Virus record (IMG/VR): IMGVR_UViG_3300017613_001354
Coordinates: 1-54,714 of that record
Reading direction: 5' to 3' (one strand)
Source of the DNA: a virus
Length of the DNA stretch: 54,714 bases
Every line of letters begins with the position of its first letter. Positions within the stretch are counted from its first letter, which is position 1. The position numbers and the translations under genes are program-made. The notes under the pieces were generated by a model that had not been told where the DNA came from, did not search any database, and was given only the letters and a program-made list of their open reading frames with translations. Below, in pieces: positions 35,539-42,462 of the stretch.

Positions 35539-36000
35539 TTACGGACCAGCATGTGAAATAATGCCGGAAGTCCAAACCTTACCGCCAATCAAAAGATTGA
35601 GGTAATAGTCTTCGGCGGCATCCTGGGTGCAATCAATATCAATATTGCCATCGGCTTCACTTAGGGCATGAAAAAACACCACACTATCCCCGCCGGACGG
35701 AAACATCGTCCCATCCGTTCCGATTGCAAGCGTGTCGGGCGCAGTTGTAGCGATAATATCCCCGATAGTATCCTCGGAGACCCAACCATGCACCATGGTT
35801 CGATAATCAATATTGTTTCCGTCTGCATCCCTTAATTGAGCGGCTATATTGATTACAGTTGCGGCCTCGACACCTACGGTAAACACAGCATCGTAAGGCG
35901 CCTTTAAGCCTAACTGGTCAGAAACCCCTTCTCTGAATTCCACAGGCCCATCGAATATAATTCGACCATTAAAAAGCCTGTCACTTGGTATTGTTAGCAT
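35539..36000 (-). CDS. Probable capsid decoration/virion protein
   Basis: A 153-aa beta-rich acidic protein downstream of the capsid gene. The C-terminal EDYYLNLLIGGKVWTSGIIS resembles short virion proteins near N4-type capsids. Function inferred from position. Confidence 0.55.
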   Translation of the reverse strand: MLTIPSDRLFNGRIIFDGPVEFREGVSDQLGLKAPYDAVFTVGVEAATVINIAAQLRDADGNNIDYRTMVHGWVSEDTIGDIIATTAPDTLAIGTDGTMFPSGGDSVVFFHALSEADGNIDIDCTQDAAEDYYLNLLIGGKVWTSGIISHAGP

Positions 36001-37778: not shown

Positions 37779-37830
37779 ATAAAGGCTCCTTGCTATTATT
37801 GTTTTCGATCATGCCTGTCTGAGCCTTTAT
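37779..37830 (-). promoter_or_regulatory. Hairpin covering the capsid gene ribosome binding site
   Basis: On the minus strand, ATAAAGGCTC (37830-37821) pairs perfectly over 10 bp with GAGCCTTTAT (37788-37779) around a 32-nt loop. The second arm includes the GAG of the Shine-Dalgarno sequence and ends one base before the ATG. When formed it should block ribosome entry to the capsid gene. The gene just upstream encodes a Com-like zinc finger, a family whose Mu member opens a similar structure at mom. Confidence 0.7.
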
Positions 37831-37874
37831 CATAGAGGGAAAGCGGCTTCTGCTGGTACGTTGATCTGTTTTAA

Positions 37875-38075
37875 TTAAATAACCATGAATTTCACTAACC
37901 GCCGGCATTTTGGCCGGCTGCATTTCACTTCTATTTGGGTTCCCTTACCCATCACGCCCTTGAATAGCAACACTCCACAATATGAACAGCGATGCTCTCG
38001 GTTTTCATTAATATGAACAACCGGCTTTAAATCATACTTGTACAGGGCGGTATCTTTTGTTTTAATCTTCTTCAA
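37875..38075 (-). CDS. Com-like zinc-finger regulator
   Basis: A 66-aa protein. Residues 29-62 match the Mu Com pattern: HRCSYCGVLLFKG, then IEVKCSRPKCRRLVKF, giving Cys30, Cys33, Cys52 and Cys57 as zinc ligands. Mu Com is a translational activator that binds mRNA and frees the mom ribosome binding site. Here the gene lies between scaffold and capsid, overlaps the scaffold's 3' end by 14 bases, and precedes a hairpin that hides the capsid ribosome binding site. Confidence 0.7.
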   Translation of the reverse strand: MKKIKTKDTALYKYDLKPVVHINENREHRCSYCGVLLFKGVMGKGTQIEVKCSRPKCRRLVKFMVI

Positions 38076-42388: not shown

Positions 42389-42462
42389 TGGATGGGGTGA
42401 CAGGAATCGAACCTGTGTAACAGGGATCAAAACCCTGGGTCAAGCCACTTGACTACACCCCA
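42389..42462 (-). tRNA. tRNA-Gln (anticodon TTG)
   Basis: Minus-strand cloverleaf: acceptor TGGGGTG/CACCCCA, D-arm with GTC/GAC stem, anticodon stem CAGGG/CCCTG with loop TTTTGAT (anticodon TTG), T-arm with TTCGATT loop, discriminator T and encoded CCA. U1-A72 fits glutamine identity, but U73 is unusual since bacterial tRNA-Gln usually has G73. It lies between the terminase and portal regions. Confidence 0.9.

Follow-up and report, generated by a model that had tools for sequence, protein, structure and literature searches.

The closest described system is the Com/mom switch (TIS) of phage Mu (PMC6483171), in which a small four-cysteine zinc protein is encoded immediately upstream of its target gene and the start site of that target is buried in a stem. 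So far, Mu Com is the only phage zinc protein for which the melting of an mRNA stem has been studied, and it acts as an activator (PMC6483171). Its native target is GAAUGCCUGCGAGCAUCCC, and the motif obtained by SELEX is GAGNNCC(N)2-3GAGNNCC; the protein reads CC(N)2-3GAG in the hairpin loop, where the GA dinucleotide is crucial (PMC6483171). The Mu hairpin, GA-AUGC-CUGCGA-GCAU-CC, whose loop carries CC(N)2-3GAG, is of the same type as those described below. The Mu target is a DNA modification gene, whereas in the phages analyzed here it is the major capsid gene.

The deposited Com genes of KS5, B3, Chuche, UMP151, and JD024 resemble the locus described here in lying directly upstream of the controlled gene, but they precede genes for DNA methylases or Mom and never, in the examined records, a capsid gene. 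The same type of hairpin is found in four of these five deposited leaders (for example, GA-AGGC-CGAGA-GCCU-CC in UMP151); the Chuche leader has the CC..GAG motif and showed no 4-bp stem in a 4-bp scan. Downstream of a Com-like match in Moraxella phage Mcat1 lies GA-AGUC-CUAAGA-GACU-CA, identical to the hairpin in L009, one of the relatives considered below (all denoted by L numbers). Coat proteins of the MS2 type control translation through an RNA hairpin that holds a start site. They are similar to the proposed system in that a phage protein binds such a hairpin; however, that control is repression by a coat protein in an RNA phage, whereas here a tailed DNA phage is proposed to use a dedicated regulator as an activator. 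Among the open-access papers searched, none associates Com with a capsid gene; most of the subscription literature was outside that search.

The window, that is, the whole stretch of viral DNA that was analyzed, comprises positions 1 to 54,714 of the IMG/VR record IMGVR_UViG_3300017613_001354. On its minus strand, a 668-aa portal-like gene is followed by two small open reading frames (ORFs), an acidic 315-aa gene, a 66-aa ORF, and a 338-aa capsid gene, with the following features:

39009 to 38062, minus strand: acidic 315-aa protein in the scaffold place (putative scaffold)
38075 to 37875, minus strand: Com-like zinc-ribbon protein of 66 aa with a TTG start and four cysteines (ORF, PHROG, and family-level homology)
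37848 to 37822, minus strand: possible competing hairpin AGCC(gc)TTT / AAAGGCT, where relatives carry the Com hairpin; not above chance (p=0.63)
37834 to 37821, minus strand: 5' arm of the stem predicted to hide the Shine-Dalgarno (SD) sequence and start, TATGATAAAGGCTC
37791 to 37786, minus strand: SD sequence AAGGAG of the capsid gene
37788 to 37775, minus strand: 3' arm of the same stem, GAGCCTTTATTATG, containing half of the SD sequence, the spacer, and the capsid ATG
37777 to 36761, minus strand: 338-aa major capsid protein of the N4-gp56 type (matches to PHROG 1357, major head protein, at E=5e-59 and to PF25209)
36000 to 35539, minus strand: gene for a 153-aa protein, the second one downstream of the capsid gene

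The Com-like ORF thus sits between the putative scaffold gene and the capsid gene; its TTG lies 14 nt ahead of the end of the acidic gene, giving a 14-nt overlap. The scaffold name is inferred from gene position and the annotation of StenR_269. The window also contains two tRNA genes, at 42392-42462 (minus strand) and 3035-3105 (plus strand).

The capsid leader of the window contains a perfect 10-bp stem, ATAAAGGCTC (37830-37821) paired with GAGCCTTTAT (37788-37779), and the addition of two Watson-Crick and two G-U pairs extends it to 14 bp (37834-37821 / 37788-37775), pairing the capsid ATG itself. The original prediction, made from the sequence alone, had described a 10-bp hairpin whose 3' arm contains part of the SD sequence and reaches the base before the ATG. 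The perfect stem held, although the full stem is longer, and so did the overlap with AAGGAG (37791-37786), the last three bases of which lie within the 3' arm. The end of the arm had to be corrected: the perfect arm stops two bases before the ATG, and it is the 14-bp stem that pairs it. Since whole-leader folding energy and mean pairing probability discriminated only weakly, the energy required to open the region from SD to AUG was adopted as the measure, using an energy model for naked RNA at 37 C. This opening cost was 12.5 kcal/mol in the window, compared to a mean of 5.3 with the upstream leader shuffled (p=0.017), and was the highest among the 34 SD-bearing ORFs of the window (next 7.8, median 3.4). 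The whole-leader folding energy by itself is unremarkable (z -0.79); what is unusual about this leader is the location of the stem rather than the total folding energy. A transcription terminator was ruled out, as no U-run follows the stem, and no Rfam family was found for the leader.

Relatives were collected in IMG/VR scans with the capsid protein and its profiles and in one scan of bacterial genomes. Removal of duplicates left 140 distinct capsid starts, with start codons and leaders picked by a heuristic rule. A Com hidden Markov model (HMM) split these relatives cleanly, with 56 capsid proteins in the tree having a Com-like ORF just upstream. In the maximum-likelihood capsid tree, all 56 fall inside a single clade of 60 members (SH-aLRT 98), and all 72 capsid proteins outside this clade lack Com. 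Among the clade members without a Com call, the L337 contig is cut inside Com, L242 has a diverged Com-like ORF missed by the HMM, L233 keeps a Com-type hairpin without a readable Com, and L251 has another, peptidase-like ORF (HVISGCRCPTHN..) in the expected place of Com. The closest cultured capsid relatives, Y3, StenR_269, and Rollin (35-38% identity), have no Com ahead of the capsid gene.

In the window and in all Com-encoding relatives, the Com gene is directly upstream of the capsid gene and in the same direction. In the relatives, the Com ORF ends 41-316 nt from the capsid start and before the leader, whereas Mu com overlaps its target. At nearly all loci with a readable scaffold ORF, the Com start lies between -41 and about +12 nt relative to the scaffold stop. 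The choice of Com starts favored nearness to that stop; the first cysteine is nonetheless just 16-119 nt beyond it. On an unrelated contig (L092, 4001-4400), a Com-like ORF is directly ahead of a portal-like gene; a 17-bp hairpin lies between the two or at the start of the latter, which could possibly be another structural target of Com.

The original prediction of a 66-aa Com-type zinc finger held as regards the ORF and its two cysteine pairs, C30..C33 and C52..C57. Taken alone, however, this protein is only a weak match to Com (PHROG gpCom, E=0.0023) and has no Pfam Com match, so that its assignment is secure because of its relatives. Its second knuckle is of the Cx4C type (CSRPKC), with two extra residues compared to CPRC. 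A perfect inverted repeat, GCCGGC..GCCGGC, is found within the gene at 37901-37918, exactly at these extra residues. At the family level, the homology is clear. The alignment of the clade proteins matches Mu Com with an hhalign probability of 97.9% (E 5.8e-13); PF10122 (Zn_ribbon_Com, Mu-like Com) matches 21 of the 38 family members (best 7e-10), the PHROG "translational regulator" matches 32, and the gpCom PHROG 30. Across the 38 aligned sequences, the four cysteines are invariant and one glycine is nearly so, with nothing else invariant. These proteins therefore belong to the Com family, with both sequence homology to Mu Com and the four cysteines in two knuckles; binding of zinc is inferred. 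The C-terminal tail of Mu Com is absent from the clade proteins. An AlphaFold model of the Com-like protein (mean pLDDT 85) has four strands and gave no significant match in Foldseek, as expected for a tiny zinc ribbon. A tblastn search of the cultured phages with one clade Com (from L002) found no match. Two variants were seen among the relatives: the L045 protein (3585-3908) has two successive zinc ribbons, and the L249 protein has additional cysteines.

The predicted stem over the capsid start proved to be a property of the whole Com-encoding group. In 55 leaders of Com-encoding relatives, the mean cost of opening the SD-AUG region is 12.6 kcal/mol, compared to 6.3 in their shuffles, with 41 of the 55 individually at p<=0.05 (Fisher 3e-41). 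In 71 leaders of relatives without Com, it is 4.8, the same as in the shuffles (4.8), and the two groups of leaders are well separated (Mann-Whitney 1.6e-16). Chimeras that join the 5' part of one leader to the SD-AUG part of another have a cost of only 7.3, compared to 12.6 for the native pairs (Wilcoxon 1.6e-9), so the two arms of the stem must have changed together. Accordingly, a stem hiding the SD sequence and AUG, its structure predicted by the energy model, is conserved by position without conservation of sequence, as illustrated by UCAUAGAAUCUC/GAGAUUUUAUGA in L038, CCAUGAGAAC/GUUCUCAUGG in L032, and AGUCCUAAG/CUUAGGACU-AUG in L009. Because some relatives are near copies and the set as a whole is not independent, the family p-values are to be taken as indicative.

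In many of these stems, the 5' arm also contains a hairpin of the Com recognition type. The strict form, GA-[4 bp]-C..GA-[4 bp]-C, is present within the 5' arm in 33 of the 55 leaders with Com, in 12 different stem sequences, compared to 0.16 in the shuffles (maximum 2 in 200 rounds) and 1 of the 71 leaders without Com. The remaining 22 lack the strict motif, several of them carrying 3-bp or shifted versions. Using anchors defined by sequence only, full 4/4 pairing was found in 34 of 64, compared to 6% with swapped arms, and comprised 13 stem types, including AGUC/GACU, AGGC/GCCU, GAAC/GUUC, GUUC/GAAC, and GGCC/GGCC. At the sequence level, the layout of the clade hairpin is thus the same as that of the published Mu Com site with its CC(N)2-3GAG motif; there are no binding data. 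A scan of IMG/VR for the pattern GAAGTCC..GAGACTC returned mostly chance matches, and the only ones with Com precede the capsid gene of this clade; a second pattern scan showed no Com context among at least 120 hits. The window leader has no recognizable canonical Com hairpin, and the candidate AGCCgcUUU/AAAGGCU was discarded because it does no better than chance (p=0.63). It is possible that the window Com reads another site or that its site has drifted.

In all 32 leaders analyzed in this respect, the stem hiding the SD sequence uses bases of the Com hairpin (324 of the 428 nt of the 5' arm). As these bases are shared, just one of the two structures can form at a time. When the Com hairpin is imposed, the opening cost falls from 14.7 to 4.7 kcal/mol, as low as in the relatives without Com. 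The price is about 11 kcal/mol on average, so that Com would need either to act during transcription or to bind tightly. In Mu, the hairpin and the stem touch only slightly, and forcing the hairpin lowers the cost from 9.2 to 8.6, with the overlap in the clade being far greater. Given the lack of a large drop in this control, the forced-fold step is not a general signature of Com.

The following mechanism can be proposed. In the free mRNA, the long stem, predicted as a structure and shown to be conserved, would pair the capsid SD sequence and AUG with the upstream arm and keep translation low. Expression of the adjacent upstream gene, probably in translational coupling with the scaffold gene, would supply the Com-like protein; this coupling is inferred and made plausible by the start of Com near the scaffold stop. 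Com would then bind the small GA-[4 bp]-C..GA-[4 bp]-C hairpin in the upstream arm, capture being easiest on nascent RNA before the SD sequence is made. Bound Com would prevent the SD-hiding stem or open it, allowing ribosomes to start on the capsid gene; without Com, the stem would close. Both binding and activation are inferred from Mu Com.

The capsid leader is thus likely to be a Com-controlled translation switch, with the Mu-type mechanism acting on a new target, although there has been no experiment and the Com steps are inferred. The support is at the family level; for the phage in the window this is the probable interpretation, the Com step being inferred from the relatives because its own leader has no recognizable Com site. 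Turning to the broader claims of the original prediction, its preset refutation test, loss of the hairpin in relatives retaining the Com-like gene, was passed: the stems are far above the shuffles and are absent from the relatives without Com. Control of capsid synthesis at translation is supported by stem conservation, covariation of the arms, and the Mu Com motif, with no experimental data. The claim of the same parts as in Mu in the same order is also supported, with a stronger likeness in the relatives than in the window, which lacks the canonical site. This parallel needs one qualification, as the geometry differs: the SD-hiding stem and the Com hairpin are in competition for shared bases, which is hardly the case in Mu. 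The protein family and the inferred mode of action are known ones (Mu Com/TIS), and the target and geometry are new.

Among the alternatives, the one that survives best, albeit as an unlikely one, is that the stem is independent of Com and serves to set a low basal capsid rate, is opened by coupled ribosomes, or is a site for RNase III, with Com acting elsewhere. The short distance from the Com ORF end to the capsid start makes coupling thinkable in the shortest cases, and the window carries the stem without a recognizable Com site. However, the stem is limited to the Com clade, its 5' arm repeatedly holds the published Com hairpin, and the same hairpin precedes the Com-linked DNA methylase genes. 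It is very unlikely that the Com-like protein is instead a translational repressor or autoregulator that stabilizes the closed form for late shut-off of capsid synthesis. A zinc-ribbon RNA-binding protein encoded beside a leader would fit either sign, and the MS2-type coat repression provides a precedent; however, Mu Com is an activator (PMC6483171), and binding of Com should open the SD sequence because the Com hairpin excludes the closed stem. A chance hairpin next to an unrelated small zinc protein, a reading for which the modest values of the window by itself (stem, p=0.017; Com, E=0.0023) leave room, is refuted at the family level by synteny and by the stem in the Com-encoding relatives (Fisher 3e-41), and is all but excluded for the window.

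Under the switch interpretation, the finding of the same protein and RNA motif at a major capsid gene shows that the switch can be carried over to other targets, and it suggests that translation can be the step at which a tailed phage times the synthesis of its most abundant protein. The clade supplies dozens of natural Com-operator pairs with differing stems for studying how Com reads RNA, and the overlapping folds yield clear predictions for mutation tests.

Some members of the clade may have a second target. In 10 of 45 loci (L016, L306, L014, L323, L336, L004, L013, L303, L243, and L027), a strict hairpin is found 30-70 nt ahead of the second gene downstream of the capsid gene, at about +1.75 to +2.0 kb relative to the capsid start, compared to 0.06 in the shuffles; only 2 of 45 loci have one ahead of the gene adjoining the capsid gene. 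In L306, L243, and L004, the downstream leader also buries its SD sequence, with opening costs of 13-15 kcal/mol. In the window, the leader of the corresponding gene (35539-36000) has no Com-type hairpin. These hairpins support the idea that Com governs a small regulon of genes in the virion region in some members of the clade. A bolder reading, toward which the evidence leans slightly less than against, would make Com a regulator of head assembly. In this scheme, the dose of Com would report scaffold synthesis, as its gene overlaps the end of the scaffold gene, and Com would then allow the capsid gene (as well as, in some lineages, the second virion-region gene) to be translated via two exclusive folds, a checkpoint placing the scaffold before the shell. 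As a separate observation, strong GC-rich terminator-like hairpins, often with U-runs, lie just ahead of this second downstream gene in many relatives without the second Com hairpin (L024, L030, L037, L038, L241, L247, and others).
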